Part shown: positions 14,267 through 32,150 of the stretch, in pieces
Layout of the letters: every line of letters begins with the position of its first letter
Numbering within the stretch: position 1 is the first letter of the stretch
DNA from: an uncultured Actinomycetes bacterium
Lineage (GTDB): Bacteria > Actinomycetota > Actinomycetes > Nanopelagicales > Nanopelagicaceae
DNA: 40,401 nucleotides
Reading direction: 5' to 3'
Assembly (NCBI GenBank): GCA_903827945.1
Contig: CAIKKN010000007.1
Span: 1-40,401 of the forward strand
The notes under the pieces: generated by a model
Database searches by the model: none
Seen by the model: the letters and a program-made list of their open reading frames with translations, nothing else
What the model was told of the DNA's origin: nothing
Made by a program: the position numbers and the translations under genes

Positions 14267-14647
14267 TTATTTTTTACTTTCAAGATCTCTTATCACTCGG
14301 TGAATTTCACTTGCTATCTCTTTTAGTTCAGCTAATTCTTGTTGCGCAAATCCTCTCGCTTCTTTTGCCAATTCAAATTCACTTAAGGAGGCAGCATGAG
14401 TTTCATTAATCTTTTGCTCAACTGATTTTGCCCCAACATTCTGCCCGACCATGATTATCGATAGCAGAACTAATTGAAGAAATGTTTGTGCAATCCAGGC
14501 AACAATAACGATGACGCTTCCGCTTTTCAGAGCAGAAGGAAGGGAGACAAGAGCAATTAGTGCGAATGCATATGCGCACCACATCGTTGCGACGCCAGCA
14601 GTTATCTTGGCGGCAAGCCGTTCGTTGAAGTTAGCTACTTTGCTCAT
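14267..14647 (-). CDS. Small two-helix membrane protein of unknown function
   Basis: A 126-residue protein with an N-terminal amphipathic stretch (MSKVANFNERLAAKITAGVATMW), two membrane segments (CAYAFALIALVSLPSAL and VIVIVAWIAQTFLQLVLLSIIMVGQN) and a charged C-terminal helix likely to form a coiled coil (HAASLSEFELAKEARGFAQQELAELKEIASEI). It resembles a widespread actinobacterial family of small membrane proteins related to DUF1003; I cannot assign a function. ATG 14647 is chosen because the encoded start matches that family; a start at 14671 would add MVRHYHLL. The first bases overlap the end of the S51 gene by 17. Confidence 0.8.
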   Translation of the reverse strand: MSKVANFNERLAAKITAGVATMWCAYAFALIALVSLPSALKSGSVIVIVAWIAQTFLQLVLLSIIMVGQNVGAKSVEQKINETHAASLSEFELAKEARGFAQQELAELKEIASEIHRVIRDLESKK

Positions 14648-15290
14648 AAGTAAATGATAATGGCGGACCATCTAAGAGATGGACCTTTGCGCCACCCTGC
14701 ACAACCCAATTCACCAGGTCTTCACTCACAAGTGCGGTCTTTTCATCAATCCCTACGAGATTTCCCCCTTGGGGTGTGTGGCCCACAAGTTTTGCAGCTT
14801 TATCTGGCACAAATCTGAAGTAGCGGTCATAGTGCGGCAAGATTTTCATTAAAGGCAAAATTCCAAGTCCATGCATCGCCATCGCCCCTGCGCTACACCC
14901 GGCAAGTGAGCTCCCTTTTTTCCAGTTCTCATAAATTGAATTCCACACAGGTGAATTTTCAAGAGTTGAAACCAAATATCCAGGATCGCCGCCGGATAAG
15001 TAAATAAGTGCAGCGTCATCGATAAGTTCACCAAATTCGTGGCTTAAAGCATCTTCTCTCTTGAATACTGGAATAAAAACATGCTCTGCGCCCATGCGGG
15101 CAGCTTGATCAGCGCCGAGAGTTTTCCAATATTCGTGGCGTGATGCACTTTCTTTTCCGGCCGCTGTCGCAAGTTGTACATACTTTCGTTTCTTGCCCCT
15201 GGCTTCACCTTTCAGCATCCACTCAGATTCGTATTTCTGCATGACAGGTAAGTACTCGCCAGAGCCCACTAAAGCCAATAAACCATGCAT
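14631..15290 (-). CDS. Peptidase S51 / type 1 glutamine amidotransferase-like protein
   Basis: A 219-residue cytoplasmic protein of the S51 fold, related to peptidase E and cyanophycinase. It starts LLALVGSGEYLP, has YLSGGDPGYLVSTL in the middle and carries the nucleophile elbow AGCSAGAM (Ser133). The family cleaves small acidic peptides, but this member is shorter than cyanophycinase (about 270 or more), and its substrate is unknown. It is the first gene of a leftward group with the small membrane protein and the MFS carrier. It is divergent from the LCP gene across about 52 bases. Confidence 0.85.
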   Translation of the reverse strand: MHGLLALVGSGEYLPVMQKYESEWMLKGEARGKKRKYVQLATAAGKESASRHEYWKTLGADQAARMGAEHVFIPVFKREDALSHEFGELIDDAALIYLSGGDPGYLVSTLENSPVWNSIYENWKKGSSLAGCSAGAMAMHGLGILPLMKILPHYDRYFRFVPDKAAKLVGHTPQGGNLVGIDEKTALVSEDLVNWVVQGGAKVHLLDGPPLSFTYEQSS

Positions 15291-16488: not shown

Positions 16489-17589
16489 TTAAAAACAATA
16501 AGTATTAACGACTTTTCCAGTTGCACTATCTAGCTCGACAAAATTGGCCGACTTTCCAACTGCAATTTCTCCGACATACTCAATCCCAAGTGTCCTTGCT
16601 GGCAAAGTAGATGCACAGTACGAGGCATACTCGATTGATGCCCCGAACTCTTCAATAAGTCTTTCAAATGTTCTCTTCATTGTGAGCGTGCTTCCGGCAA
16701 GCGTCCCATTCGACTTTAATCGGGCGACGCCACTCTCAACGACTACATCGAGGCTTCCTATTTTGTATGAGCCTGGTCCTTCTACACCTGCTGCGCACAT
16801 TGCATCAGTTATAAGAACGACTCGATCTGGAGCGTTCTTCAAGACCAATTCAACCGCGGCATTGGCCACATGGTGCCCATCATTAATTAATTCAAGAACA
16901 ACTGAATCGTTAAGTAAACCGACGAGTGTAATTCCAGGATGGTAGTGATCAATTCTTGGAATTGCATTGTAGAAATGTGTAATGACAGATGCTCCTGCAG
17001 CTAGCGCTTTATTTGCGACATCAGCATCGGCATCAGAATGCCCTATCGCAACAACAACGCCGTTGTCGGTAAGAAATTCGGTTGCTTCTATTCCGTGCGG
17101 TAGTTCTGGTGCAAGAGTAAACATTGAAATTGCGCCGTCGCCGACCTCTAAGAGTTCTTTCAATTCTGAAACAACAGGGTCGCGAAGGAGGGCGGGATCG
17201 TGCGCGCCGCATTGGCCAGGTGAAAGATATGGACCTTCCAGGTGAATGCCTGCAATTTTTCCGCTCTTCACAAAGGGAACAAGTCTTCTGATTTGTTCTT
17301 TCAATTGGTCTAAAGGCTCGCTCACCAAACTTGCAATGGTTGTGGTGGTGCCGTTTGCTCTATGTATATCAATGACTTTTTGGATTTCTTCATCACTCTT
17401 TGCTGAAAAATAACTTCCGCCACCGCCATGGCAATGCATGTCAACAAAGCCTGGGATAAGAGTTCCTAGAATCTCAAGATCAGCACTTCCTTGTGCATCA
17501 AGAGAAGTAATCACGCCATCTATGACTTCAAGCTTTATTCCGCTGCGAATTTCGCCCTCTACCAAAAGAGAATTAGCGCTAATAATCAT
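16489..17589 (-). CDS. nagA: N-acetylglucosamine-6-phosphate deacetylase
   Basis: A 366-residue amidohydrolase that removes acetate from N-acetyl-hexosamine 6-phosphate. Signature segments are VDMHCHGGGG (metal-binding HxH), HLEGPYLSPGQCGAHDP, IGHSDADADVANKALAAGASVITHFYNA, LINDGHHV and LITDAMCAAGVEGPG (catalytic Asp). Length is normal for NagA. It is the last gene of the leftward amino-sugar operon and overlaps the ROK kinase stop by 4 bases (ATGA). Deacetylation of a sugar phosphate made by the upstream kinase, and deamination by the SIS-domain protein at the head of the operon, form a coherent pathway. Related AgaA enzymes act on GalNAc-6-P and cannot be excluded. Confidence 0.92.
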   Translation of the reverse strand: MIISANSLLVEGEIRSGIKLEVIDGVITSLDAQGSADLEILGTLIPGFVDMHCHGGGGSYFSAKSDEEIQKVIDIHRANGTTTTIASLVSEPLDQLKEQIRRLVPFVKSGKIAGIHLEGPYLSPGQCGAHDPALLRDPVVSELKELLEVGDGAISMFTLAPELPHGIEATEFLTDNGVVVAIGHSDADADVANKALAAGASVITHFYNAIPRIDHYHPGITLVGLLNDSVVLELINDGHHVANAAVELVLKNAPDRVVLITDAMCAAGVEGPGSYKIGSLDVVVESGVARLKSNGTLAGSTLTMKRTFERLIEEFGASIEYASYCASTLPARTLGIEYVGEIAVGKSANFVELDSATGKVVNTYCF

Positions 17590-18488
17590 CCGCGTGCTCG
17601 CAATCCAAATATTCCGGAGCCAATCATCCCAGCATGGTCGCCTAGATGCGCAATAGCTAATTTAGGTCGTTTCTGAAAAGTTAGACGCCTATCTATATAA
17701 GCCTCAATGGGCTTAAGTAAATCATCGCCGGCTTTGGAAACTCCCCCGCCCAGAATAATTATTTCGGGGGCAAGAATGTTTATGTAGGCGGTCAAAGTGA
17801 ATGCAATCGCTTCGACTGAGGCCAGCCATACTTCGGCCGCGAGAAGATCACCGTTTTTAGCAGCTTTAACAACTTCGGATGAATCTGACAACTTTGTTGA
17901 ACTTTTCTCATTGTAAATTCTTACAATCGATGGACCCGTTGAAATACTTTCAAGGCAACCAACAATTCCACACGCGCACATATATCCGCTATTAACGTCT
18001 AGATGTCCTATTTCCCCACCATAAGGATTGTCATAAAGTTCGCCATCAATAACGAGCGCTCCGGCTATGCCTGTTCCGATTGGGATAAATAGCGAGTCTC
18101 TAAAGCCCTGGCCTGCTCCATAAAGGGACTCTGCGACACCGCCCGCTCGAACATCGTGACCGAACCCCACTGGTAAACCGGTAACTTCATTTACCAATTT
18201 TCCAAATGGAATATCTCTCCAGCCTATGTTTTCCGAATATTCAGCAATACCTGCTTTGGAATCAACAACACCTGGAACAACTACACCAACAGCAACGGCA
18301 TCTGGAAATTCTCGATGCATTTCCTTTGCTGCTAGCAATACCTGGTTTACGGAATGCTCTGGACCTTTTTCACGTTCTGTTGGCCAACGCCTTGCCGAGA
18401 GAATTTCTGCGCCACGCAACAAACCGGCCTTTATTTCTGTTCCACCGACGTCGAGACCAATTACAAGGTCTTGATCATTCATGGTCAC
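17586..18488 (-). CDS. ROK family sugar kinase, probable N-acetylhexosamine kinase
   Basis: A 300-residue ROK kinase. The phosphate-binding loop is IGLDVGGTEIKAGLL near the N-terminus. The ROK zinc site is intact with EIGHLDV and CACGIVGCLE. IPIGTGIAGALVIDGELY is the second nucleotide/sugar region, and ILGGGVSKAGDDL lies near the end. The absence of an N-terminal helix-turn-helix makes it an enzyme, not a NagC-type repressor. Its position between a GH4 glycosidase and NagA suggests it phosphorylates an internal N-acetylhexosamine, but glucose or mannosamine kinases share these motifs. GTG 18488 overlaps the GH4 stop by 4 bases (GTGA); an ATG at 18482 is also usable. Confidence 0.9.
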   Translation of the reverse strand: MTMNDQDLVIGLDVGGTEIKAGLLRGAEILSARRWPTEREKGPEHSVNQVLLAAKEMHREFPDAVAVGVVVPGVVDSKAGIAEYSENIGWRDIPFGKLVNEVTGLPVGFGHDVRAGGVAESLYGAGQGFRDSLFIPIGTGIAGALVIDGELYDNPYGGEIGHLDVNSGYMCACGIVGCLESISTGPSIVRIYNEKSSTKLSDSSEVVKAAKNGDLLAAEVWLASVEAIAFTLTAYINILAPEIIILGGGVSKAGDDLLKPIEAYIDRRLTFQKRPKLAIAHLGDHAGMIGSGIFGLRARG

Positions 18489-19819
18489 TTAGAAAATCCT
18501 CCAAGATGTGTCGGGTCAAATGCAATTGCATCATCAAGTATGCCAGTCGCCTTTTGATAACTTGCAACAAGTGGATCTAAATAGAGCGCCTGGAGCGCCA
18601 AACTTCTGCTGTTTTCGCGTGCCGCGTTCACGGTGATTTCTTGTTGCTGTGATCTCTGGGTTAAGACTGTTGATATTGCCTTTGGAAGGGCTCCTACCCG
18701 AAGAGGTGTCACACCGTTTGCTCCGATAACAGCTGGAACTTCTACGACTGCCTCAGGCGGCAAGTTGCTGATTGCTCCGTTGTTTGGGACATTCACTGCT
18801 AATTCCACATGATTTTTTCCAGTAATGAGTGCTTCAGCAATCGAAACCAAACGCTCTGCTTCCTGATTATCGCGCTTGTGAACGGGAATTGATCCATCAG
18901 CTTGTCCACGAAGCTCTTCCCACAAGTCGCCTTTTTCGCCGATGTACAACTCTGTCATATTGAGACCGCCTTGAAGCCCCCAATGAAGTTCACCTGAATC
19001 TTGCAATGAAAGATATCCGCTGAAGAATTCTGCAACGTGGCGATCACCTGGGGCTGGATAAAGTCCAAAAGTCTTGAACAGGTCATAAGAAACTGGAGAG
19101 TGAATACCCTCATCGTAATTAATCGGCGACTCTTTCTTTCCGCCATTCTTATTTACAGCTTCTCTTAGAAGTGGATATAAATCTTCTGATCCTTTTCTGA
19201 TATCAAGTAACCAACACAAGTGATTTATTCCAGCAAATATAGTCTCGATACCAACATCTGGAATGTTGAGGTCTGCAAGTAATTTCGATCGAGTGTGCAT
19301 CGTTCCATGGCAGAGTCCGACGACATTTACTCCCGTATATTTTGTGATACCTCGAACATTTGCTGTTAAAGGGTTGCTGTAATTGATATTCCAAGCCGTT
19401 GGTGAGACATCGGCAATGTCTTCAGCAATTGATACAAGTGCAGGTACATGCCTTAACGCCCTCAAGACGCCTCCGGGACCAACCGAGTCTCCAACCGTCT
19501 GATGAATTCCATATTTGCGAGGAATTTCTAAATCTGCTTTCCAACCACCTGCGGCTCCAACTGCAATTGTCGTCGTTACAAAATGAGAACCTTTGAGAGC
19601 TTCGCGCTGCGAATCAAAGGCTTTTACAACCATTTTTGAGTTATGTAGCTCAGAAATTCGATTGCCAACTCTTGCCATAATTTCAGCTGATTCGACGTTT
19701 ATGTCATACAAATGAACTTCAAAGTCATCAGAAAGTTTAGATTGGGCAAGGTCGTGCATTAGCCCAGGAGTAAAGACAGTGCTTCCGGCCCCGATTAAGG
19801 TGAAAATCTTCTTGCTCAT
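18485..19819 (-). CDS. Glycoside hydrolase family 4 (NAD+-dependent glycosidase)
   Basis: A 444-residue GH4 enzyme. It has the N-terminal NAD-binding motif (FTLIGAGSTVF), the family segment NYSNPLTANVRG, the metal-ligand cysteine in VGLCHGTMH, the metal-ligand histidine in AGINHLCWLLD and a substrate-region APGDRHVAEFF. GH4 enzymes use NAD+ and a divalent metal to cleave alpha or beta glycosides or 6-phosphoglycosides by oxidation at C3. Subgroup specificity is not readable here. With an ABC importer (which delivers unphosphorylated sugar) and a kinase after it in the operon, an unphosphorylated galactoside- or glucoside-like N-acetylhexosamine conjugate is the likeliest substrate. ATG 19819 gives the family start MSKKIFTLIGAG; ATG 19849 would add ten residues and overlap the permease gene. 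Confidence 0.9.
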   Translation of the reverse strand: MSKKIFTLIGAGSTVFTPGLMHDLAQSKLSDDFEVHLYDINVESAEIMARVGNRISELHNSKMVVKAFDSQREALKGSHFVTTTIAVGAAGGWKADLEIPRKYGIHQTVGDSVGPGGVLRALRHVPALVSIAEDIADVSPTAWNINYSNPLTANVRGITKYTGVNVVGLCHGTMHTRSKLLADLNIPDVGIETIFAGINHLCWLLDIRKGSEDLYPLLREAVNKNGGKKESPINYDEGIHSPVSYDLFKTFGLYPAPGDRHVAEFFSGYLSLQDSGELHWGLQGGLNMTELYIGEKGDLWEELRGQADGSIPVHKRDNQEAERLVSIAEALITGKNHVELAVNVPNNGAISNLPPEAVVEVPAVIGANGVTPLRVGALPKAISTVLTQRSQQQEITVNAARENSRSLALQALYLDPLVASYQKATGILDDAIAFDPTHLGGFSK

Positions 19820-19832
19820 ATTCCGACTCCGA

Positions 19833-20669
19833 TCACTTGACACTTCCATTTATAAGTCCACTTACGATGAAACGGTTTGTGAATAGAGCAATTACTGCTG
19901 GTACCGAAAGTGCGATAACACCTGCTGTGCTAAGTAAAGAATAAGGCACAACGTGGCGACCTTGGATCGCTGCCACAATCACAGTTAAAGGCTGTGTGGA
20001 TTGATCGCTCGCCAAAACAAGAGGAAATATGAATTGCGCCCACGCAAAGAGAAATGTGATCACTCCGGTAGATGCAATGGCCGGCATGATGAGAGGAAGA
20101 ACAATTAACCTAAATACTTGCATTCTGCTTGCACCGTCAACGGAGCCAGCCTCCTCAATAGCTGCTGGCAAACTCTGCATGTAACTTAAGAGAATCCAGG
20201 TTGCCAATGGTAAGAATCCAGAAACATAACAGAGGATGATTCCTAAGTATGTGTTTACTAGGTGGATTGATGCCATGATCCGGTACATTGGAATTAACGT
20301 TGTGTAAGTTGGGAAAGCCATAGTCATCACAACAATAAAGAGAAAGAATTTGCGTCCTTTAAATTCCATTCGAGCAAATGCATATGCTGCCAACGATGCA
20401 AGAACCACTGTGATAACCGTCGCCGAAATACATTCAATAAAAATGTTAATCGTGGAGCGCCTGACCATGCCCGCTAATTCACCATTTCCAATTAGCAGTG
20501 CTTTGTAATTAGCCCATCCCGGCGTTGGAGGGTATAGATGGCTCGGTGTATCTGATATCTGTGCATCGGTCTGAAAACTAGTATTAATAACCCAATAAAT
20601 AGGGATTAGAGACCACGACAGAATGAAACCTATACCAAATCGTCTAAATCCTAGATTGCTCGGCTTCAT
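19833..20669 (-). CDS. Carbohydrate ABC transporter permease (MalG-like, CUT1)
   Basis: A 278-residue inner-membrane permease with about six membrane segments, the second of the pair in this importer. The cytoplasmic coupling loop to the ATPase is IEEAGSVDGASRMQVFRLIVLPLIMPAI (EAA motif). The C-terminus VSGLINGSVK is typical of MalG-type proteins. The start ATG overlaps the partner permease stop by one base. Substrate class follows from the operon: probably an amino-sugar-containing glycoside. No ATP-binding subunit gene is adjacent. Confidence 0.92.
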   Translation of the reverse strand: MKPSNLGFRRFGIGFILSWSLIPIYWVINTSFQTDAQISDTPSHLYPPTPGWANYKALLIGNGELAGMVRRSTINIFIECISATVITVVLASLAAYAFARMEFKGRKFFLFIVVMTMAFPTYTTLIPMYRIMASIHLVNTYLGIILCYVSGFLPLATWILLSYMQSLPAAIEEAGSVDGASRMQVFRLIVLPLIMPAIASTGVITFLFAWAQFIFPLVLASDQSTQPLTVIVAAIQGRHVVPYSLLSTAGVIALSVPAVIALFTNRFIVSGLINGSVK

Positions 20670-21547
20670 CAGTATTCAACCTTTTTGTAGATGAATTTCG
20701 CCACCACAACAGAAATTAGAAGTGTGAAGATTGTGATTAACAGTGATAAAGCATAGCCCTGACCAAAATTTAGATTTTGAAAACTAACCGCGTAGGTCTC
20801 CATCGCCAGAGAATTAGCCGTAGTCGCTGCGCCATTTAAAATATATGGTTGGTCAAAGACATTCAGAGTTGCAATGATCGCCTGAACCACAGCAATTGCA
20901 ATTCCGGGCCTGATAAGTGGCAAAGTAATATGTAGAAAAGACTTTCGAGAATTGCTGCCATCAATCGTCGCTGCTTCATATAAATCATCAGGAATATTTT
21001 GCAAGACGGCCAATATGAGAATGGTCGATAAAGGGGTAATTTGCCAAACCTGAACGATTTCAATTGCAAGAATTGTTAGCAGACGATTTTGGCCCAGGAA
21101 GACTTGATAATGAGTAATGAGATGAAGTGATTTAAGAACGCTGTTTAGCACTCCGGTGTTGGCATCCCAAATACCTGTCCACAAAATGCCTTCAACTACA
21201 CCAGGCAAGGCCCATGGCAGAATCAAGATTGCAATCAGTATGGAGCGGCCTTTAAATCGGCGCTGAAGAATTACTGCAATATAGATTCCAAGTACCGTGG
21301 AGAGGGTGACTCCAATTACTATGTAAAGAAAGGTATTTCCAAGACTTGAAATGACCGCTGAGTTATGAATGATGTCTCGAAAGTTATCCAGCCCGGAAAA
21401 GTGAGTAGGTGGATTAAGTGGCTGAACTTTAAAGAATGCCGCGACTGATGTGTACACCGCAGGAGTGATTGCAAGGCAAATGATAAAAAGAATAAGTGGT
21501 GATATGAGGGCATACGGAAGCAGATCAACACTCTTCCGCTTATTCAA
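20669..21547 (-). CDS. Sugar ABC transporter permease (MalF-like, CUT1)
   Basis: A 292-residue membrane protein with about six hydrophobic segments starting LLPYALISPLILFIICLAITPAVYTSV. The EAA coupling motif is LYEAATIDGSNSRKSFLHITLPLIRPGI. It is the first permease gene after the binding-protein gene and is separated from it by 74 bases containing a strong hairpin (21572-21599). It forms a heterodimer with the downstream permease. The importer belongs with the glycosidase, kinase and deacetylase genes that follow. Confidence 0.92.
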   Translation of the reverse strand: MNKRKSVDLLPYALISPLILFIICLAITPAVYTSVAAFFKVQPLNPPTHFSGLDNFRDIIHNSAVISSLGNTFLYIVIGVTLSTVLGIYIAVILQRRFKGRSILIAILILPWALPGVVEGILWTGIWDANTGVLNSVLKSLHLITHYQVFLGQNRLLTILAIEIVQVWQITPLSTILILAVLQNIPDDLYEAATIDGSNSRKSFLHITLPLIRPGIAIAVVQAIIATLNVFDQPYILNGAATTANSLAMETYAVSFQNLNFGQGYALSLLITIFTLLISVVVAKFIYKKVEY

Positions 21548-21571
21548 AGTAAAACACCGCCCTTTTAAGAA

Positions 21572-21599
21572 ATGGCCACCAGCGCAAACTGGTGGCCAT
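21572..21599 (-). promoter_or_regulatory. Strong intercistronic hairpin between binding-protein and permease genes
   Basis: ATGGCCACCAG at 21572-21582 and CTGGTGGCCAT at 21589-21599 form a perfect 11-bp stem with a 6-base loop. It lies in the transcript (leftward) just after the binding-protein stop (21622) and before the permease start (21547). In the transcribed direction it is followed by TTCTTAAAAGGG, not a long U-run, so it is more likely a processing or stabilising hairpin or a leaky terminator than a full stop. Such hairpins in other ABC operons allow binding protein to be made in excess of permease. On the opposite strand it is followed by T-rich sequence. Confidence 0.7.
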
Positions 21600-21621
21600 A
21601 CTTATTTTTCTCTTTTGTGGA

Positions 21622-22941
21622 CTATTTACCGCTTGAGAGTTTTGTTGCGGTAGCAGCAATTGCCTTAATAGCTGCGTCAACAGTCATGGTTCCAGCGGCT
21701 GCTGCATGCAGGTTTGTATATACAGCACTTGAGAATTCTGGATACCAAGCTGGTGCACCTTCTGGGAATACAGCAGCTGAAGTCTTTAGCATCCCTGCCA
21801 AGACATCTCCGCCGATGATCGATCCCTTCTTATTAAGGATTGCAATTCCAGAAAGTCGTGATGGGAAGAAATATCCAACCCATGTGCGCGATGTTCCGCT
21901 TGCACCGGCAAAGTCAGCCATGTTCTTTCCGTCAGTAAACCAACTGATGAATTTGGCTGCTCCTGCTGGATTCTTTGCTTTTGCAGGAATTCCAATGCCA
22001 TCAGGATTACCCAAGTTACTTGCTGGACCTGTTGCACCAGGTGTCGCAAGATATTGAACTTGGTGAACAACTGATGATGAAGCTGCAACATCGTAAAGTG
22101 ATCCGACGTTTCCGGAGTAATCACTGAATGTCGATGCAACTTTGCCCTTAGCCATCAAAGTTTGTTGTCCTTGGCTATCAGCTACATTTATATTTCCAGG
22201 TGGAACGAGGCCAGTCTTGACCGCATTCACCATCCAAGCAGCAGCCTTATAACCTGCGCTGGTTGGTGAAGTGAACAATGGCTTACCTGTTGCATCAAGA
22301 ATGTGTCCGCCGAATGCTCCGGTTGTCTCATACCAATATGTTGATAGGCCTTCTGCAGCAGCGAACGGAATATTCAATGGGTATTGAACAACCTTCTTTG
22401 CCTTTACAGTTTTCAAATCTGCCGTGTACTCATCAATGGTTGTAGGCATCTTCGTGATTCCTGCTTTTGAAAATAGTGCCTTATTGACAGTGGTAACCAT
22501 GAATGATGCATCGTAAGGAATACCAACTACGTGTCCATTCTTTGTGAAGCTGCCAAGTTGTGGCATGTCAGCACTAAGAGCTTTAGTGTCGAGGTACTTT
22601 TCCATTGGCAAGAACCAATTGAGTTTTCCTAATTGTCCAACACGAGACCAGTCGACGTCTGTTGCATCAGCAAAGAATGTATTTGCGGTAGCTGCTGCGG
22701 CGATCTTTGTCTGAAGTGAATCCCAATCCAATTGAGTCCATTTAACAGTGATTCCTGTTGCTTTTGTGAACTCAGCAAGCATTGCAGGAGGAAGTGGAGG
22801 CGCTGCGAGCACCACAGAAATGGTTGAAGGGGTTGCTGCTTTAGCTGGCACAGCAAGTGATGAAAAACCAAGAGCGGATACAACCGCGACAACAATTGCA
22901 ACGCTCTTTGTTGACTTACTAACTTTTATAGCATCTAGCAT
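21622..22941 (-). CDS. Sugar ABC transporter substrate-binding protein (CUT1)
   Basis: A 439-residue extracellular solute-binding protein (family 1). The signal peptide is VAIVVAVVSALGFSSLAVPAKA followed by ATPSTISVVLAAPPLPPAMLAEFTKATGITVKW, the usual start of the mature binding fold. The middle contains GIPYDASFMVTTVNKALFSKAGITKMPTTIDEYTADLKTVKA, a common motif of this family. There is no lipobox cysteine after the signal segment, unusual for a single-membrane bacterium. It lies directly downstream of the SIS-domain gene and upstream of its two permeases. The ligand is inferred from the operon to be an oligosaccharide or glycoside of an amino sugar. Confidence 0.93.
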   Translation of the reverse strand: MLDAIKVSKSTKSVAIVVAVVSALGFSSLAVPAKAATPSTISVVLAAPPLPPAMLAEFTKATGITVKWTQLDWDSLQTKIAAAATANTFFADATDVDWSRVGQLGKLNWFLPMEKYLDTKALSADMPQLGSFTKNGHVVGIPYDASFMVTTVNKALFSKAGITKMPTTIDEYTADLKTVKAKKVVQYPLNIPFAAAEGLSTYWYETTGAFGGHILDATGKPLFTSPTSAGYKAAAWMVNAVKTGLVPPGNINVADSQGQQTLMAKGKVASTFSDYSGNVGSLYDVAASSSVVHQVQYLATPGATGPASNLGNPDGIGIPAKAKNPAGAAKFISWFTDGKNMADFAGASGTSRTWVGYFFPSRLSGIAILNKKGSIIGGDVLAGMLKTSAAVFPEGAPAWYPEFSSAVYTNLHAAAAGTMTVDAAIKAIAATATKLSSGK

Positions 22942-22999
22942 ATTGCGGTTAGCCTTTCTTCTCTTTTGGGTTTAACTTGCTTTTCTATTCTCTATTTCT

Positions 23000-23875
23000 T
23001 TAATTAAGAATAATTGATCGAGACAGTCCACGAGGATGATCTGGATCTAGCCCTTTCACTTTTGCGATTTCGATTGCTGTCCGTTGTGCACGGATGAGGT
23101 GCGCCATTGGATCTAGCGAACTCTTCTCTAAAAGTGCACCAGTTGCAATGATTTCTTTTTCCAACTTTGGATCAAGGTGTCCAAATACCCAGACTGCACG
23201 ACCTTCTTGGGCAATTGACATTGGTCCGTGACGATAATCAAATGCTGGGTAAGCCTCCGACCAGAATTGTGCTGCTTCTCGAGTTTTCAACCCAGCTTCT
23301 TGAGCGAGCGCAATCGTCCAGCCCGTTCCTAAAAATGAAATTTGTTCGACGTTGGGAAGCCCACCCAAGTCACTTGAAACCGCAATCTCAGCATCATTTG
23401 CAGCGCTTATTAAATCGTGACCATTATGCGCACGCAGTAGGCCAAGGGCGGCTGTTGCCCAACGAGTTTGAACGACAGATTCTTCATCTGCAAAATCCAT
23501 AATGATTGAATTGGTAGCAACTTCCGTCACAGGGGAGCCGGCAACAGCTGTAATAACTGTTGAGGGGATCTTGCTCTTCTTCAACACTTCGATTACTTCG
23601 GTTGTTGTTCCAGATCGAGTAATGACCACCATGTGGTCGTATGCGCGGCCGTAATTAAATTCTGAGCCTGCATAAAAATCGGTTTCGCCATTTCCTGCTG
23701 CTTCACGGACGCCGGCATACCCTTGGGACATAAACCAAGAGCTGCCACAGCCGACCGCGGCAACTTTTGCCCCATGCTTTGGCAGGAGGTGGGCTACGGA
23801 TGGAAGAAATTGAGCAGTTTGGCGCCAGATTGCAGGTTGGGTAGCTAATTCTGTTTCACAAATATATTGAGTCAT
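23000..23875 (-). CDS. SIS-domain sugar isomerase/deaminase (AgaS or GlmS C-domain-like)
   Basis: A 291-residue protein with two SIS (sugar isomerase) domains. Domain 1 carries AVGCGSSWFMSQGYAGVRE and MVVITRSGTTTEVIEVLKKS, the phosphosugar-binding Ser/Thr loops. Domain 2 carries FLGTGWTIALAQEAGLKTREAA and SEAYPAFDYRHGP. This is the layout of AgaS-type ketohexosamine-6-phosphate deaminase/isomerases and of the isomerase half of GlmS without its glutaminase domain. Next to nagA, a deaminase that turns GlcN-6-P or GalN-6-P into a ketose 6-phosphate is the best reading. ATG 23875 (MTQYICETELATQPAIWRQ) matches the usual start; GTG 23923 would add 16 residues and cannot be excluded. Confidence 0.85.
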   Translation of the reverse strand: MTQYICETELATQPAIWRQTAQFLPSVAHLLPKHGAKVAAVGCGSSWFMSQGYAGVREAAGNGETDFYAGSEFNYGRAYDHMVVITRSGTTTEVIEVLKKSKIPSTVITAVAGSPVTEVATNSIIMDFADEESVVQTRWATAALGLLRAHNGHDLISAANDAEIAVSSDLGGLPNVEQISFLGTGWTIALAQEAGLKTREAAQFWSEAYPAFDYRHGPMSIAQEGRAVWVFGHLDPKLEKEIIATGALLEKSSLDPMAHLIRAQRTAIEIAKVKGLDPDHPRGLSRSIILN

Positions 23876-23940
23876 GAGGGTAGTTAAACCCTGGCTACCT
23901 CCAAAGTCAACGATTTTTTGCACTATTTTGATTTATTTTA

Positions 23941-23962
23941 ATTGTAACGAAACATTTACAAT
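23941..23962. promoter_or_regulatory. Palindromic operator candidate in divergent control region
   Basis: ATTGTAA (23941-23947) and TTACAAT (23956-23962) are perfect 7-base inverted arms around an 8-base centre. They sit in the shared 185-base gap between the two divergently transcribed sugar-uptake arms. On the minus strand the centre reads TGTTTCGTTACA, which resembles the TTTCGTT-type sequence recognised by several DeoR-family repressors. A DeoR-type gene is encoded at 27079 in the rightward arm, so it is the obvious candidate ligand. The right arm TACAAT also resembles a -10 box for rightward transcription. The role is inferred from sequence and position only. Confidence 0.6.
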
Positions 23963-23981
23963 CAAATCCTTGCCTAAATGC

Positions 23982-24015
23982 CTCACTTGGCGTTGAATCA
24001 GTCCACCGAAGTGAG
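23982..24015 (+). promoter_or_regulatory. Possible leader hairpin upstream of the second binding-protein gene
   Basis: CTCACTTGG (23982-23990) can pair with CC-G-AAGTGAG (24006-24015) to give a 9-bp stem with one bulged G and a 15-base loop. It would lie in the 5' leader of the rightward transcript. AGGGAG, the ribosome site, is at about 24050-24055, just before ATG 24061. No riboswitch class is recognised. Confidence 0.3.
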
Positions 24016-24060
24016 CTCCCGCTCCCTTCACTCCACCCTCAAATCCTTAAGGGAGATTAA

Positions 24061-25320
24061 ATGAAGAAATCAATGCGCCGAACTGCATTTGCAGCTTCGC
24101 TCGTTTTGGCAGCCACCGGTGTAGTTGGCATTTCGCTACCTATCGCTCACGCTGCAGACGTAAGCCTCACAATGGTTGCCGCTGACTATCCAGGCGATGG
24201 AAAGACTCAGCAAGCACAATGGGATGCAGTTTCAAAGGCATTCGCTGCGGCAAACCCTGGCATCACCATGACAGTAAATGTTGTTTCATGGGATGTAATT
24301 GATGACAAGGTCAAGACACTTATCGCAACAGGTAAGACACCTGACATTGTTAACAAGGGTGACTACTCGGCACCAGCTGCTGCAGGTCTCCTATACAAGG
24401 CATCTGAAATGGTTTCTGCTTCAACACTTGCAGACATCATTCCAACATTCTTGAACAACTCTATGTACAACGGAACAGCTTATGCAGTTCCAGATCTTGC
24501 TTCAGCTCGTGCTTTGTTCTACAACAAGGCAATCTTGAAGAAGGCTGGCGTTACAAAGCTTCCAACAACTTGGAAGGAACTCCTAACAGTTCTTTCAAAG
24601 ATCAAGGCTAAGAACCCTGGCGTTTACGGTTACGCAGTTCCAATGGGTCCAGAAGAAGCACAAGCTGAATTCTCAATCTGGGCTGGCGGAAACGGTGGTC
24701 GTTTGTATGACTACACCGCAAAGAAGTGGACTGTTAACTCAGCTGCAAACGTTGAGGCAATGGCATTCTTGAAGAAGATGAATGACCTTAAGTACATCGA
24801 GCCAAACCCAGCTAAGTGCGACCGCACAGTTTGCGCACAAACATTGTTCGCAGCTGGCAAGGCAGCATTTATCAACGGTTCAGTATTCCTACCAGGTTGG
24901 TTGAAGGATAACGGCGGAGCAGGAATCGATCTTGGTTCAGGTTCATTCGTTCACAACGATGGTCAAGAAGCTGTAACACTTGGTGTGCAGGATTACTTCA
25001 CTGCATACAAGGCAAACGGTCACCAAGCTGAAATCCAGAAGTTCATGGACTTCTTGTACAAGCCAGCAAACTACGCTGCATTCCTTAAGGCTGCAGGCGG
25101 ATTCATTCCTGCAACAAAGTCAGCAGGCGTAGAAGCAGCTAAGGATCCAGCACTTGCTCCATTCATCGCATTGCTTCCACACGCGATCTTCTACCCAGGA
25201 GATATCGCAACATGGCCAGCAGTGAAGGGTGCTCTACAACAATCCGTAGGTCTTGCTGTTACAGGCAATCCTTCAAAGGTTCTTGGAGATATCCAGAAGA
25301 AAGCACTTGCTGCTAAGTAA
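24061..25320 (+). CDS. Sugar ABC transporter substrate-binding protein (CUT1), highly codon-biased
   Basis: A 419-residue extracellular solute-binding protein. The signal peptide MKKSMRRTAFAASLVLAATGVVGISLPIAHA precedes ADVSLTMVAADYPGDGKTQQAQWDAVSKAF. PDLASARALFYNKAILKKAGVTKLPTTWKELLTVLSKIK is the family 1 hinge-region motif. No lipobox cysteine is present. Lys is encoded almost only by AAG and Ala mostly by GCA or GCT, unlike the mixed use in neighbouring genes, which points to very high expression. A good ribosome site (AAGGGAG) precedes the ATG. It heads the rightward operon with two permeases, a DeoR-type repressor and an aldolase. Confidence 0.95.
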   Translation: MKKSMRRTAFAASLVLAATGVVGISLPIAHAADVSLTMVAADYPGDGKTQQAQWDAVSKAFAAANPGITMTVNVVSWDVIDDKVKTLIATGKTPDIVNKGDYSAPAAAGLLYKASEMVSASTLADIIPTFLNNSMYNGTAYAVPDLASARALFYNKAILKKAGVTKLPTTWKELLTVLSKIKAKNPGVYGYAVPMGPEEAQAEFSIWAGGNGGRLYDYTAKKWTVNSAANVEAMAFLKKMNDLKYIEPNPAKCDRTVCAQTLFAAGKAAFINGSVFLPGWLKDNGGAGIDLGSGSFVHNDGQEAVTLGVQDYFTAYKANGHQAEIQKFMDFLYKPANYAAFLKAAGGFIPATKSAGVEAAKDPALAPFIALLPHAIFYPGDIATWPAVKGALQQSVGLAVTGNPSKVLGDIQKKALAAK

Positions 25321-25346
25321 TTAGCAACAGATAGATATAGATAACT

Positions 25347-26237
25347 ATGGCAACGGGATCAATTCGCAGAGGACGCTTCGGCGCACTTCCGTGGATTGGT
25401 CCCGCTGTCGTTTTAATTTTGGTGATGGTTGTTTGGCCAGCCATCGAGATGATTCGTACTTCGTTCCACGAAATTGATCAGACAGGTATTGCAAAAGGTT
25501 GGAATGGAATAACCAACTACAAGAATCTGATTCACAACCCGGATCTACCTCAAACCGTAGTCCGCACTGTGATCTGGGTAAGCGTTGTGGTCGTTGTTAC
25601 TGTTCTTGTATCACTACCAGTTGCGCAAATCCTTCACGGAAAATTCCCTGGTCGCAAAGCCGTTCGATTCGCCATTATTGTTCCTTGGGCAGCATCAGTT
25701 GTTATGACCGCCATCATCTGGCGTTGGATGCTCGATGGTTTTTATGGAATTCTCAATCGCATCCTTCAAGATCTTGGAATACTAAAAGAGCCTGTTGACT
25801 GGCTTGGAAATCCAAATCAAGCATTTATTTTTCTTATGGTCGTCGCAATATTTGTTTCAGTGCCATTCACAACGTATGTAATCCTTGCCGGCCTCACAAC
25901 TATTCCAGATGACATTCTCGAAGCGAGCGCAATCGATGGGGCGAATGGTTGGAAGCGCTACAAAGAAATTATTTTTCCACTGCTTCGCCCAGCACTGCTC
26001 GTTTCAGCAGTCATTAACCTTATTAACGTCTTCAACTCATTCCCGATTATTTGGGCAATGACTGGTGGCGGACCTGGATATTCCACAGACACCACAACCA
26101 CACTTGCCTACAAGATAAGTTTCCGCGATCAAGATATTGGCCAATCCGCAGCGATGGCCACCGTTAACTTCATCGTCATTCTTATCTTTATTTCAATCTT
26201 TTTGAAAGTTTCAAAGTGGCGGGAGACCAGCTCATGA
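25347..26237 (+). CDS. Sugar ABC transporter permease (MalF-like, CUT1)
   Basis: A 296-residue membrane protein with about six hydrophobic segments beginning LPWIGPAVVLILVMVVWPAIEMI. The EAA motif is ILEASAIDGANGWKRYKEIIFPLLRPAL, for contact with the ATPase. WAMTGGGPGYSTDTTTTLAY is a conserved segment of MalF/UgpA-like permeases. It follows the binding-protein gene by 26 bases and overlaps the next permease by 4 bases (ATGA). Confidence 0.93.
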   Translation: MATGSIRRGRFGALPWIGPAVVLILVMVVWPAIEMIRTSFHEIDQTGIAKGWNGITNYKNLIHNPDLPQTVVRTVIWVSVVVVVTVLVSLPVAQILHGKFPGRKAVRFAIIVPWAASVVMTAIIWRWMLDGFYGILNRILQDLGILKEPVDWLGNPNQAFIFLMVVAIFVSVPFTTYVILAGLTTIPDDILEASAIDGANGWKRYKEIIFPLLRPALLVSAVINLINVFNSFPIIWAMTGGGPGYSTDTTTTLAYKISFRDQDIGQSAAMATVNFIVILIFISIFLKVSKWRETSS

Positions 26238-27082
26238 CCATGGCAGGTTCCTCGCGCAAGCGCTTCACGGGCCGAAAGGTTTCCCTCACCATTGCAGGAT
26301 GGGTTATTGGCGCCATTTTTATCGCGCCTTATCTGTATATGTTGCTCACAGCGCTCAAGCCACAGGCTGAAATTGCCGCAATTCCGATCGATTACCTGCC
26401 TTCAAAGTGGACGTGGAGCAACTTCACTGAGGTCTGGAAAATCATTCCTTTGGCCGGCTACATCAAGAGTTCATTCTTTATAGCCTTCTCAGCAACAATC
26501 ATCGTGCTTATTTTCGCAGTGCCCGCCGCGTATTACGTAGCGCGCAACAAGTTCCGCGGTCGTACCGCCTTTTTGCTCCTAGTTCTTATTACTCAGATGT
26601 TCTCACCGACCGCGCTAGTCATCGGTATTTTCCGCGAGATCATTAAGTTCCATCTCGTTGATACATATACATCTCTGATTTTGATTTACGGCGCATTTAA
26701 TATGGCTTTCTCTATTTGGATTCTTTCATCCTTCTTTGCTTCTATTCCTGTAGATATTGAGGAAGCGGCTTGGATTGATGGAGCTTCCAGGTTTGGAACT
26801 CTGCGACGAGTCATTTTGCCGTTAGCCCTCCCTGGCCTGGTCACAGCCTTTATCTTCACTTTTATTGCAGCGTGGAACGAATATGTCATCGCGCTAACAT
26901 TGATTTCAACACCGGCTCGTGAGCCTCTCACCGTCGGTCTCACCACTCTTATTGGCCAGTATCAAGTTCACTGGAATTTCCTCTTTGCAGGATCTCTCAT
27001 AGCAATTGTTCCTGTCGTGATCCTCTTCGCAGCTATTGAAAAATATCTCGTCGGAGGATTAACTGCAGGAAGTGTGAAGTGA
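26234..27082 (+). CDS. Carbohydrate ABC transporter permease (MalG-like, CUT1)
   Basis: A 282-residue membrane permease with about six hydrophobic segments. The EAA motif is DIEEAAWIDGASRFGTLRRVILPLALPGL, and the typical C-terminus is EKYLVGGLTAGSVK. ATG 26234 is chosen because it overlaps the preceding stop as ATGA; a second ATG lies two codons later. Its own stop overlaps the DeoR-type gene start (GTGA), so the four genes are translationally linked. No ATP-binding subunit gene follows, so a shared MsiK/UgpC-type ATPase encoded elsewhere is likely needed. Confidence 0.93.
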   Translation: MTMAGSSRKRFTGRKVSLTIAGWVIGAIFIAPYLYMLLTALKPQAEIAAIPIDYLPSKWTWSNFTEVWKIIPLAGYIKSSFFIAFSATIIVLIFAVPAAYYVARNKFRGRTAFLLLVLITQMFSPTALVIGIFREIIKFHLVDTYTSLILIYGAFNMAFSIWILSSFFASIPVDIEEAAWIDGASRFGTLRRVILPLALPGLVTAFIFTFIAAWNEYVIALTLISTPAREPLTVGLTTLIGQYQVHWNFLFAGSLIAIVPVVILFAAIEKYLVGGLTAGSVK

Positions 27083-27870
27083 GCAAGCAAGACCGCCTCA
27101 ATAGCATTTTAGAGTTAGTCGTAGAACGTGGTTCTGTTGAAGTTGAGGAAGCAGCACAAATCCTAGGTGTCTCGCCTGCAACCATCCGTCGCGACTTTGA
27201 TGCGTTATCTGCAAGACAACTTCTCAATCGCACACATGGTGGTGCATCAGCGACAGGCGGCTCCTTTAATTTACCGCTGACATACAAGGTTGCTAAAGAT
27301 GATGAAATAAAGAAGCGGATTGCACTTGTAGCGGCAGGCATGGTCAAGAGGCATCAGGTTGTTGGAATAAATGGAGGAACAACAGCGACAGAAGTTGCTC
27401 GCGCCCTTGCCGCATCACCTGAATTTGCACCTGGGGACGATACTGAACGCCCACCGCTCACCGTTGTAACAAATGCATTAAATATCGCAACTGAGCTAAC
27501 TGTTCGCCATCAAATACGAATTGTTGTCACAGGAGGCGTTGCTCGAGCTCAATCGTATGAATTGACAGGGCCTTACGCAGAAGCTGTTCTTGAAGAAGTA
27601 ATTATCGATGTTGCATTTCTCGGCGTGGAAGGTTTGCATCCTGATACAGGTGCAGCCGCAGCGTATGAAGACGAAGCGCGGATAAATCGAATGCTTGCAT
27701 CTCGTGCAAATAGAGTCGTGATTGTCGCCCATTCTTCAAAGTTTGAGAATCGCTCATTTGCCACAATCGCGCCTTTTAGCGAAATTGATGTCATTATTAC
27801 TGATGCAGGCATAGACCCACGCGTAAAGAAGTCACTCGAAGAGCAAGGTGTAGAGATTGTTATCGCATAA
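27079..27870 (+). CDS. DeoR/GlpR-family transcriptional repressor
   Basis: A 263-residue regulator. The N-terminal winged helix is DRLNSILELVVERGSVEVEEAAQILGVSPATIRRDFDALSARQLLNRTHGGA (about residues 5-56). A DeoR C-terminal sugar-phosphate sensing domain follows, with VVGINGGTTATEVARAL (phosphate-binding), VTGGVARAQSYELTGPYAE and AFLGVEGLHPDTGAAAAYEDEARINR. Members of this family sense phosphorylated sugars and repress the operon in which they lie. The GTG start overlaps the permease stop by 4 bases. The palindrome at 23941-23962 is its most likely operator, which would couple both divergent arms to one sugar-phosphate signal. Confidence 0.93.
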   Translation: MSKQDRLNSILELVVERGSVEVEEAAQILGVSPATIRRDFDALSARQLLNRTHGGASATGGSFNLPLTYKVAKDDEIKKRIALVAAGMVKRHQVVGINGGTTATEVARALAASPEFAPGDDTERPPLTVVTNALNIATELTVRHQIRIVVTGGVARAQSYELTGPYAEAVLEEVIIDVAFLGVEGLHPDTGAAAAYEDEARINRMLASRANRVVIVAHSSKFENRSFATIAPFSEIDVIITDAGIDPRVKKSLEEQGVEIVIA

Positions 27871-28711
27871 AGAGGAAGGCGAGCATAAGTTCACTGGAGC
27901 GTCGTTGGTACATGCCGCGGCAAAACGTGGCGGTGCGATTGGTGCCTTTAATGTCATCTTGATTGAGCATGCGGAGGCATATGCCATTGGAGCAAATGCG
28001 TCAAAGCTCCCAACCATCTTTCAAATTTCACAAAATGCTGTTGAATATCATGGTTTCTTAAAACCTATTGCTCGTGCTTGCCAAGCCATTGCCGAGCATT
28101 CCGAGGTAGATATCTCAGTACACCTTGATCATGCTGAAGATGAAAACCTCATCAGGCAAGCCCTTGACCTTGGTTTTGATTCGATTATGTTCGATGGTTC
28201 CAAATTAGATTTTGCTACAAATGTTGCAAAGAGTGCCGAACTTGCAAAACTCTGCCAACAATATGGTGCATCTCTTGAGGTAGAGCTTGGCGAAGTTGGT
28301 GGGAAAGATGGAGTGCACGCACCTGGAGTGCGAACAAACCCGGCAGAAGCAAAGAAGTTCGTAGAAGCAACGGGAGTGGATTTACTTGCAGTTGCTGTGG
28401 GTTCATCACACGCCATGACAACTCGAGATGCCACTTTGGATTTTGAATTGATTAAGGAACTTGCCGCAGTTGTTCCTGTTCCACTCGTCCTTCATGGATC
28501 TTCTGGAGTTTCAGATACCGATCTTCAAAAAGCCGTTGCATCAGGGATGCGGAAAATAAATATCGCCACGCATCTCAATCATGTTTTTAGCAATGAGGTC
28601 CGAGCTGCTCTCAGCGGTGATCCAAAGCTCGTTGATCCACGCAAATACATAAAGCCCGCTCGCACTGCAGTTGCTGCAGAGATTGCTCGATTACTTACTT
28701 TGCTTGGTTAG
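27857..28711 (+). CDS. Class II ketose-bisphosphate aldolase (tagatose/fructose-1,6-bisphosphate type)
   Basis: A 284-residue zinc-dependent aldolase. Key segments are HLDHAEDENLIRQALDLGFDSIMFDGSKLDF (catalytic Asp and zinc His), LEVELGEVGGKDG, VGSSHAM (phosphate/zinc His region), VLHGSSGVSDTDLQKA and RKINIATH (phosphate-binding). It splits a ketose 1,6-bisphosphate into glyceraldehyde 3-phosphate and dihydroxyacetone phosphate. The KbaY/GatY and FbaA groups share these motifs. With an AgaS-like protein nearby, tagatose bisphosphate is plausible, but no hexose-phosphate kinase gene lies in the window. The only workable start is TTG 27857, which overlaps the repressor gene by 14 bases; no ATG or GTG is in frame before conserved sequence begins. 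Confidence 0.9.
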   Translation: MLSHKEEGEHKFTGASLVHAAAKRGGAIGAFNVILIEHAEAYAIGANASKLPTIFQISQNAVEYHGFLKPIARACQAIAEHSEVDISVHLDHAEDENLIRQALDLGFDSIMFDGSKLDFATNVAKSAELAKLCQQYGASLEVELGEVGGKDGVHAPGVRTNPAEAKKFVEATGVDLLAVAVGSSHAMTTRDATLDFELIKELAAVVPVPLVLHGSSGVSDTDLQKAVASGMRKINIATHLNHVFSNEVRAALSGDPKLVDPRKYIKPARTAVAAEIARLLTLLG

Positions 28712-28721
28712 TTGCAACTAG

Positions 28722-29930
28722 CTAGACAATCATCCACATTGGATTTTCAAATCGCTTAGAGAAGGCTGCTAACCACTCAGCGGCAAGGGCTCCATCAATA
28801 CTTCGGTGGTCTACTGAAAGTGTGAAGTTAATAACCGTTGCTGGGACTATTTGCTCGCCCTTAACAACTGGCTTCTTCTTCGCAGCTCCAACAGCCAAGA
28901 TCATTGATTGTGGCGGGTTGATAATCGCGTAGAACTCATCAGTTCCATACATCCCAAGATTTGTTACAGAAATTGTTCCGCCTTGGATTTCATCTTGTTT
29001 CAATTTTCCATCACGCGCGCGCCCGAAGAGGTCTCCGGTGACCTTTGCAAGATCATCAAGTCGATGCTTCTCTACTCCTCGCACAACCGGGGTAATCAAG
29101 CCGTTATCAGTTGCAACCGCTACTGCAATATCGACTGTGTTAAAGAACTGCATTGCCTCATCGCCCCAAATGCAATTTGCCTTTGGAACATCGGAATATG
29201 CCGCTGCTACGGTTTTCAAGATCAGGTCAGTGACTGAAACTTTTGTCGTTGTCCACTCGTTTAATTTCTTTCGAAGTTCCAAGAAGTCATCAGCAATGAG
29301 CGCTGCAGACAAATAAAAATGTGGAACCGTAGTTTTGCTTTCCGTTAGACGGCGAGCAATTGCTTTTCGCATACGAGAGTGAGGAACTAAATCATTTGGA
29401 TTACCGGCAACAACAGGCGCTGGCGCTCCCTGTGCTGCATAAATATCTGCCTTCACAATGCGGCCATCCGGCCCAGTTCCTGCTACTAAAGTGATATCTA
29501 CATTTAATTCACGTGCGAGTTTGCGCGCAATTGGACTAAGAAAAATGCGACCGTTGTTTGCTGGTACTGGAGCAACTGGCTCTGGAGCAACTGGGGCGGC
29601 AACAACAGGCGCTGCAACCTCCTGCGCAACTGGGGTTGGCGTTAAAGATGGAGTTCCAGCCAAGATTTTGTCGATCTCAGCGGCGTCTTCACCTTCGGCT
29701 AGCAAGACAGCGATAGGGAGTCCTACCTGTGCATTCTTGCCTTCGGCAACTAAATACTTTCCAAGAATTCCCGCGGTTTCTGCGGGGACTTCGACGAGTG
29801 CTTTTTCCGTCTCTACTTCCGCAAGGGGCTGCCCGACTACGAAGGCTTCCCCCTCTTTCACTAACCATTTAGAGAGAATTGCTTCGGTTGCATCTGCCAA
29901 CAAAGCTGGCATTCTCATCATTGAAGCCAT
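28722..29930 (-). CDS. 2-oxoacid dehydrogenase complex E2 (dihydrolipoamide acyltransferase)
   Basis: A 402-residue E2 subunit. One lipoyl domain (residues 1 to about 80) carries the lipoyl-lysine Lys43 in VETEKALVEV (EKA instead of the usual DKA). An Ala/Pro/Val-rich linker (about 92-126) follows, then a peripheral-subunit-binding domain (RIFLSPIARKLARELNVDITLVAGTGPDGRIVKADI, about 128-163). The C-terminal acyltransferase domain ends with the catalytic HRSIDG (His375, Asp379). The gene overlaps the stop of the fused E1 gene directly upstream. No E3 (dihydrolipoamide dehydrogenase) gene is nearby, so a shared E3 must be used. Which 2-oxoacid (pyruvate, branched-chain or acetoin) is oxidised cannot be decided from sequence alone. 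Confidence 0.93.
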   Translation of the reverse strand: MASMMRMPALLADATEAILSKWLVKEGEAFVVGQPLAEVETEKALVEVPAETAGILGKYLVAEGKNAQVGLPIAVLLAEGEDAAEIDKILAGTPSLTPTPVAQEVAAPVVAAPVAPEPVAPVPANNGRIFLSPIARKLARELNVDITLVAGTGPDGRIVKADIYAAQGAPAPVVAGNPNDLVPHSRMRKAIARRLTESKTTVPHFYLSAALIADDFLELRKKLNEWTTTKVSVTDLILKTVAAAYSDVPKANCIWGDEAMQFFNTVDIAVAVATDNGLITPVVRGVEKHRLDDLAKVTGDLFGRARDGKLKQDEIQGGTISVTNLGMYGTDEFYAIINPPQSMILAVGAAKKKPVVKGEQIVPATVINFTLSVDHRSIDGALAAEWLAAFSKRFENPMWMIV

Positions 29931-32110: not shown

Positions 32111-32128
32111 AGCGGGACTCCTTGACGT

Positions 32129-32140: not shown

Positions 32141-32150
32141 CTTTAGGTTC

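Follow-up and report, generated by a model that had tools for sequence, protein, structure and literature searches.

A divergent locus, very likely for amino-sugar use, in an uncultured actinobacterium: a core module and an inserted cassette with a CHGT-clade GH4 glycosidase

In Escherichia coli, N-acetylgalactosamine (GalNAc) and galactosamine (GalN) are utilized through the aga/kba system (AgaS, AgaA, KbaY and AgaR), AgaS being taken as a signature of GalNAc/GalN use and AgaS without AgaA as pointing to GalN (PMC5583593). GalN is reported to occur mainly as a sugar of extracellular polymers (PMC11014887). Glycosidases of family GH4 act by NAD+-dependent oxidation at C3, Mn2+-dependent elimination of the aglycone to give an unsaturated ketone, addition of water and re-reduction (PMC10755693). 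One of them, ChbF, belongs to the chitobiose pathway of E. coli and does not cleave the N-acetylated disaccharide, so that ChbG must free the amine (PMC13197890). The GH109 alpha-N-acetylgalactosaminidases exploit similar NAD+-dependent C3-oxidation chemistry on GalNAc glycosides, but they form another, metal-independent family (GFO/IDH/MocA-like; PMC10755693). In the literature searched, outside which most subscription papers fell, no GH4 enzyme acting on alpha-linked GalNAc or GalN was found. Here, a locus is described at positions 16489-28711 of the window, i.e. the whole stretch of 40,401 nucleotides analysed (contig CAIKKN010000007.1 of assembly GCA_903827945.1, from an uncultured Actinomycetes bacterium), which very likely serves amino-sugar import and catabolism and includes a GH4 glycosidase. 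The observations concern its gene content and order, the homology of its products, its structure as a core plus a cassette, and a recurrent linkage of the glycosidase with hexosamine-6-phosphate deaminases. Parts and logic are known, but the combination of a non-phospho GH4 of a clade of its own, an ABC importer, a SIS/AgaS deaminase and an accessory aldolase, assembled by modular insertion, was not found described in the literature searched.

The interval contains 12 tightly packed open reading frames (ORFs), assigned to families by Pfam and NCBIfam profile searches and arranged in two divergent arms. Outward from the control region, the minus arm reads SIS–SBP1–MalF1–MalG1–GH4–ROK–NagA (SBP, solute-binding protein) and the plus arm SBP2–MalF2–MalG2–DeoR–aldolase, and within each arm neighbouring genes mostly overlap, by 1-22 bp. 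Divergent arms, with two importers minus their ATPase, are what an earlier sequence-only reading had described. The features are as follows:

16489..17589, minus strand: NagA/AgaA-type N-acetylhexosamine-6-phosphate deacetylase, core module (TIGR00221, 235.8 bits versus a cut-off of 225.65; present in congeners without GH4)
17586..18488, minus strand: ROK-family hexosamine kinase (PF00480, 184.8 bits; its history is that of the GH4 block and differs from that of the flanking genes)
18485..19849, minus strand: GH4 NAD+/metal-dependent glycosidase, CHGT clade (PF02056, 145.3 bits, and PF11975, 159.8 bits)
19833..20669, minus strand: CUT1 permease MalG1, cassette (PF00528; relatives of 58-66% identity adjoin GH4/SIS/AgaS in other actinobacteria)
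20669..21547, minus strand: CUT1 permease MalF1, cassette (PF00528; relatives at 64-69%)
21622..22941, minus strand: solute-binding protein SBP1, cassette (PF01547; relatives at 63-73%)
23000..23923, minus strand: SIS-domain hexosamine-6-phosphate deaminase/isomerase (PF01380; best PDB match 2cb0, E=9e-20; among NagB-fold proteins of the genome, just one candidate exceeds the cut-off, and it resembles 6-phosphogluconolactonase)
23924..24060, no strand: divergent control region of 137 bp (AT-rich; presumed DeoR operator)
24061..25320, plus strand: solute-binding protein SBP2, core importer (PF01547, 112 bits; kept in congeners without GH4)
25347..26237, plus strand: CUT1 permease MalF2, core (profile match; kept in congeners without GH4)
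26216..27082, plus strand: CUT1 permease MalG2, core (profile match; kept in congeners without GH4)
27079..27870, plus strand: DeoR-family repressor, AgaR-like (DeoRC, 145 bits, and HTH_DeoR)
27857..28711, plus strand: class II ketose-bisphosphate aldolase, GatY/KbaY side (profile match of 276 bits; TIGR00167, 221.7 versus 215.6)

The interval thus encodes two proteins of the SBP_bac_1 family along with four binding-protein-dependent permeases, and no ATPase gene is found among its ORFs. CUT1 importers commonly share one ATPase encoded elsewhere. Indeed, a UgpC/MsmK-type ATPase (456.6 bits versus a cut-off of 432) is encoded elsewhere in the genome (G000:C1:38288), flanked by an unannotated short ORF and isocitrate dehydrogenase and with no related permease or SBP gene nearby; a binding protein with two permeases but no ATPase, together with this distant MsmK/UgpC ATPase, fits CUT1 importers served by a shared ATPase. 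The source genome (1.50 Mb in 34 contigs, 95% complete; GC content of the window, 46%), which was searched for named families, is that of a small-genome, probably freshwater, actinobacterium, with a likely position within or close to the acI/Nanopelagicales group.

The locus resembles the E. coli aga/kba system in having a SIS-fold deaminase, a deacetylase, a GatY/KbaY-like aldolase and a DeoR-type, AgaR-like repressor, and, with the kinase, an Aga-type set is gathered in one place when judged by enzyme class rather than by subfamily model. It differs in that ABC importers and a ROK kinase are found instead of a phosphotransferase system (PTS), the SIS protein is not of the AgaS subfamily, an intracellular GH4 is present and, among the four PfkB proteins of the genome, no LacC-like candidate for a dedicated tagatose-6-phosphate kinase was found. 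With the chb operon (ChbF and the deacetylase ChbG) it shares the presence of a GH4 enzyme in a hexosamine route; however, ChbF, which requires a free C2 amine (PMC13197890), is of the 6-phospho-beta type (CN motif) and PTS-fed, whereas the GH4 of the window is of the non-phospho type, carries the CHGT motif and is ABC-fed. ChbF also shows that a GH4 enzyme in a hexosamine pathway is not unusual in kind, contrary to what had been supposed for this locus (PMC13197890).

Why two importers face one control region finds an explanation in the comparison of 32 genomes of the genus, that of the window included. The SIS gene is found in 12 of the 32, always with the aldolase (12/12), and GH4 in only five of these 12. 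In the seven congeners without GH4, SIS–ROK–NagA are contiguous and stand opposite SBP2–MalF2–MalG2–DeoR–aldolase where the contig shows it, except that in one (G021) the importer and DeoR are absent between SIS and aldolase. In the five GH4-bearing genomes, SBP1–MalF1–MalG1–GH4 is placed between SIS and ROK. Since SIS–ROK–NagA and importer 2–DeoR–aldolase are kept without GH4, they form a core module into which a cassette is inserted, and this accounts for the two importers; both are present at one control region, as the sequence-only reading had noted, but not as a single designed unit. The same gene order recurs in four congeners, with SIS, SBP1, MalF1, MalG1 and GH4 at 84-95% protein identity, and is therefore not a chance arrangement.

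The history of ROK and SIS is at odds with that of the flanks. A congener without GH4 (G022) is close to the window in the LytR flank (90%), SBP2 (91%) and aldolase (82%), and distant in ROK (46%) and SIS (68%), whereas a GH4-bearing one (G003) gives 73%, 80% and 67% for the former and 74% and 84% for the latter. Accordingly, the five GH4-bearing genomes form one clade in the ROK tree (100/99), with G022 among the genomes without GH4 (98/95), and the SIS tree likewise groups the GH4-bearing genomes, against the SBP2 (99/99) and aldolase (97/97) trees, in which G022 joins the window to the exclusion of G003. This conflict argues that SIS–cassette–ROK moved, or was lost and replaced, as a block, in a direction that cannot be told. 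Importer 1 and GH4 resemble a module that was plugged in, or exchanged, by recombination; in this way a streamlined genome would widen its diet, an operon already present receiving a glycosidase together with its importer. A recent foreign origin of the cassette was also considered on the basis of base composition, and discarded, GC content and GC at third codon positions being like the rest.

The GH4 protein is predicted to be an NAD+/metal-dependent glycosidase: both Pfam domains score above their cut-offs, and the metal ligands Cys180 and His210 and the NAD-binding GAGS motif (20-23), invariant in 46 sequences, are present. In the GH4 tree it falls in a seven-row clade bearing the CHGT motif (support 100), whose sister is a CHGV/CHGM clade (89), apart from the MelA-type CHSV enzymes. 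MelA-type alpha-galactosidases belong to the same family, and some are paired with the same type of importer 1, but they differ from the window GH4 in clade and in their CHSV and Ser-Glu-His signatures. The predicted model (mean predicted local distance difference test score 89.4) finds its best PDB match, and closest solved structure, in the alpha-galacturonidase LplD (3fef, 30% identity), which has a CHE active-site motif, absent from the window GH4 (CHGT instead). The CHG motif may be read as a possible mark of alpha-glucuronidases; the solved alpha-glucuronidases (TM0752, 3u95) are farther from the window GH4 than LplD is.

Where a GH4 locus is flanked by 8 kb or more on each side, a SIS/AgaS gene is nearby in 17 of 28 cases of CHG type and in 5 of the 45 others (Fisher p 1.3e-5, a descriptive value, the loci being related), and at least nine changes of state on the GH4 tree speak for repeated association. 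The CHG motif alone was rejected as a mark of amino-sugar GH4s: an actinobacterial CHSV clade is also linked, and some CHG members (Azospirillum and Roseobacter types) are not.

Outside the genus, a scan with the GH4 alignment across genomes of 84,980 species gave uncultured actinobacterium metagenome-assembled genomes (L069, L070) as the nearest named records and, below the congeners, at least four relatives at 58-63%, from Kribbella (two), Actinopolymorpha and Microlunatus. In all four loci the order SBP1–MalF1–MalG1–GH4 is the same, and a DeoR gene runs divergently; three have an AgaS-family gene and one an acI-like SIS gene, and the Kribbella loci also a BadF/NagK-like kinase. A search with SBP1 only, in 394 actinobacterial genomes, added three importer-1 clusters in which the adjoining GH4 is of the MelA type (CHSV), accompanied by AgaS and BadF (two) or SIS (one), by an aldolase 51-54% identical to that of the window and, in two, by a PfkB nearby; in L226, GH4 and DeoR occur with SBP1–MalF1–MalG1–AgaS–BadF, PfkB and aldolase. 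GH4, SIS/AgaS and DeoR are therefore near importer 1 in all seven non-congeneric loci (7/7), three of which were found without GH4 as bait. The AgaS genes of sister clusters score 481-492 bits with the AgaS model TIGR02815, and in three clusters linked to GH4 the AgaS protein shares 44-47% identity with that of E. coli, which points toward galactosamine. Furthermore, SIS–PfkB–aldolase units of sister actinobacterial clusters contain kinases of the 1-PFK/LacC group; such a kinase and a GatY-like aldolase would be superfluous if the product were fructose-6-phosphate, so that the logic is that of galactosamine rather than glucosamine.

The aldolase of the window is itself 35% identical to GatY, 33% to KbaY and 24% to FbaA, and a separate FbaA-type enzyme is encoded elsewhere (G000:C28:11145), which makes it an accessory rather than the housekeeping enzyme; it passes the general ketose-bisphosphate aldolase model TIGR00167 and falls short of the GatY/KbaY tagatose-bisphosphate one (TIGR01858, 198 versus 443.55 bits). 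The DeoR protein gives 180.3 bits with the AgaR model NF040755, below the cut-off of 260, and is 31% identical to E. coli AgaR. With SIS/AgaS neighbours of the GH4 clade in other actinobacteria, this accessory aldolase and a GH4 outside the MelA-type alpha-galactosidases, the amino-sugar pathway of the sequence-only reading gains support. Between GalNAc and GlcNAc (N-acetylglucosamine), the galacto sugar leads, with GlcNAc as a possible substrate.

A route in two layers, read from sequence and context as to all substrates, the repression, the role of the phosphofructokinase and the bond cleaved, can be proposed. In the core layer, (i) importer 2 would take up the hexosamine or its N-acetyl form; (ii) the ROK kinase would yield the 6-phosphate; (iii) NagA would strip the acetyl group where present; (iv) the SIS protein would deaminate and isomerize the hexosamine-6-phosphate to a ketose-6-phosphate; (v) a phosphofructokinase encoded elsewhere (there is one in the genome) would add the second phosphate; and (vi) the GatY-like aldolase would split the ketose bisphosphate, the DeoR protein repressing both arms from the central region. 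In the cassette layer, importer 1 would take up a small glycoside, to be cleaved inside the cell by GH4 through oxidation at C3 by NAD+, metal-aided proton loss at C2, elimination, addition of water and re-reduction; the freed amino sugar would join the core route via the ROK kinase. The sugar released is most likely galactosamine or its N-acetyl form, with a uronate or galactose as next choices. No NagA-like gene is found near those relatives of the cassette that have AgaS with BadF, and many sister clusters lack one; together with the sparing of the N-acetylated substrate by ChbF, this suggests that a galactosaminide with a free amine may be the substrate of the CHGT enzyme. Free galactosamine would then pass to ROK and SIS with NagA bypassed, and the ROK gene travelling with the GH4 block would be the matching kinase. 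For the same reasons, the order of cleavage, phosphorylation and deacetylation first proposed for the locus is doubtful.

Taken as a whole, this two-layer account, with a galacto-type sugar imported and released by GH4, is the one that we favour, with some reserve. A narrower proposal, put forward tentatively, is that the CHGT clade represents an undescribed GH4 specificity, i.e. an NAD+/metal-dependent alpha-galactosaminidase or alpha-N-acetylgalactosaminidase, spread together with an importer and, within the genus of the window, a ROK kinase of its own, and serving galactosamine scavenging by actinobacteria. If true, an amino-sugar specificity would be added to a family in which the chemistry hinges on the C2 substituent, allowing NH2 and NHAc handling to be compared, and the use of galactosamine by soil actinobacteria and by small-genome aquatic ones would have a genome-level marker.

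Several observations weigh against this account. The loci in which GH4 is linked with importer 1 and a hexosamine-6-phosphate deaminase are related and not fully independent. None of the four PfkB proteins of the genome is LacC-like. The SIS protein, weak in Pfam (31 bits versus a cut-off of 25), is nearer to the glucosamine-6-phosphate deaminase GlmD (NF041128, its best subfamily match, 91.5 versus 580 bits) than to AgaS (TIGR02815, 19.3 versus 529.2), although below both cut-offs. NagA passes the GlcNAc-6-phosphate model TIGR00221, which does not separate GlcNAc-6-phosphate from GalNAc-6-phosphate, and GlcNAc uptake is reported for acI-type freshwater actinobacteria (PMC5574706). Along with the precedent of ChbF in chitobiose use (PMC13197890), these features of SIS, NagA and uptake would suit the use of GlcNAc or of compounds derived from chitin or peptidoglycan, with GH4 acting on a GlcN(Ac) glycoside, SIS yielding fructose-6-phosphate and the aldolase supplementing glycolysis. 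Such a glucosamine version is unlikely, given that fructose-6-phosphate needs neither a dedicated second aldolase nor the LacC-group kinases of homologous clusters, and that SIS is replaced by AgaS in sister clusters.

As to the bond cleaved, the main rival of a galactosaminide is a uronoside: the amino-sugar pathway would be kept, and GH4, as an alpha-uronidase of the galacturonidase or glucuronidase type, would take a uronic acid off a uronosyl-amino-sugar disaccharide, leaving the amino sugar to ROK, NagA, SIS and the aldolase. The triad Asp269-Arg270-His271, which LplD has in common with almost every CHG-type GH4 in the comparison (MelA types have Ser-Glu-His), counts in its favour and against the galactosaminidase; the standing of LplD as best match in both sequence and structure and the prediction that acI genomes use altronate (PMC5574706) are also in its favour. 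Genes for sugar acids (IlvD/Edd dehydratase, FAH hydrolase, 2-hydroxyacid dehydrogenase) surround the GH4s of the sister CHGM clade, but these are absent from the clusters of the CHGT clade; moreover, the same importer-1 type pairs with MelA-type GH4s too and the CHE motif of LplD is missing, so that a uronidase appears rather improbable.

Removal of galactose from an alpha-galactosyl-hexosamine by an alpha-galactosidase is still harder to sustain. The alpha-galactosidase model NF011657 is the best NCBIfam match of the window GH4, and importer-1 relatives in L211, L225 and L226 adjoin MelA-type GH4s, of which that of L211 exceeds the cut-off; the window GH4, however, reaches only 335.2 bits against 486, lies outside the MelA clade and lacks both CHSV and Ser-Glu-His, and no galactokinase match is found in the 95%-complete genome, which makes a galactosidase less likely. 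That there is no amino-sugar pathway at all, with SIS as an isomerase/deglycase for neutral sugars or of Amadori type and another amide as the target of the NagA-like protein, is very improbable: SIS does not reach any specific model and NagA is absent from many sister clusters, but NagA scores above its own cut-off, and SIS and ROK are replaced in sister clusters by AgaS-family proteins and NagK-like BadF kinases. A sulfoquinovose pathway, suggested by the occurrence of NAD+-dependent sulfoquinovosidases in clusters for sugar catabolism, was rejected, these enzymes being GFO/IDH/MocA-like and not GH4 (PMC10755693).

Other GH4 clusters came to light in the survey. A second actinobacterial clade (MelA-like, CHSV; L193, L208-L211, L216, L217, L225, L226) also has SIS/AgaS and an aldolase of the same kind close by; the association of GH4 with hexosamine genes therefore arose more than once. 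In soil actinobacteria, a CHGM-clade cluster (L078, L079, L082, L085, L090, L200, L204, L205, L038) combines a CUT1 importer, a 2-hydroxyacid dehydrogenase, DeoR and a gene that bears a polysaccharide deacetylase annotation (without a Pfam match), usually with an IlvD/Edd dehydratase and often with FAH hydrolase, aldolase and SIS; it seems to join amino sugars and sugar acids in one pathway, for which no name was found. GH4 is also found near AgaS in gut-type Lachnospiraceae/Erysipelotrichaceae and a Treponema (L086, L089, L106, L100), mostly with a BadF kinase and/or aldolase, the Treponema having two tandem GH4 genes.

Two non-coding elements of the locus deserve mention. In an alignment of 11 genomes, the control region (23924..24060), whose 137 bp are the presumed DeoR operator, contains repeated TTTTG words common to congeners with and without GH4. 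Between SBP1 and MalF1 (21548-21621, minus strand), a strong hairpin with an 11-bp GC-rich stem (GCCACCAG...CTGGTGGC) recurs in each of the five genomes of the genus that carry GH4, with variation in both stem and loop, and looks like a 3' stabilizer/attenuator raising expression of the binding protein over that of the permeases. Neither the Rfam nor the tRNA search gave a match in the window.

Elsewhere in the window, a 699-residue ORF without Pfam match lies at 207-2306, and a short peptidase-S51 protein with weak similarity to cyanophycinase (59.8 bits versus a cut-off of 126.6) at 14631-15290. A 751-residue ORF (29930-32185) fuses the E1 alpha and beta parts of a pyruvate/2-oxoacid dehydrogenase, with an E2 gene adjoining, and a second sugar-like locus (32782-39475) encodes a GntR/FCD regulator, an SDR protein, a hydroxyacid dehydrogenase, a CUT2-type permease and two zinc dehydrogenases resembling inosose/threonine dehydrogenases.

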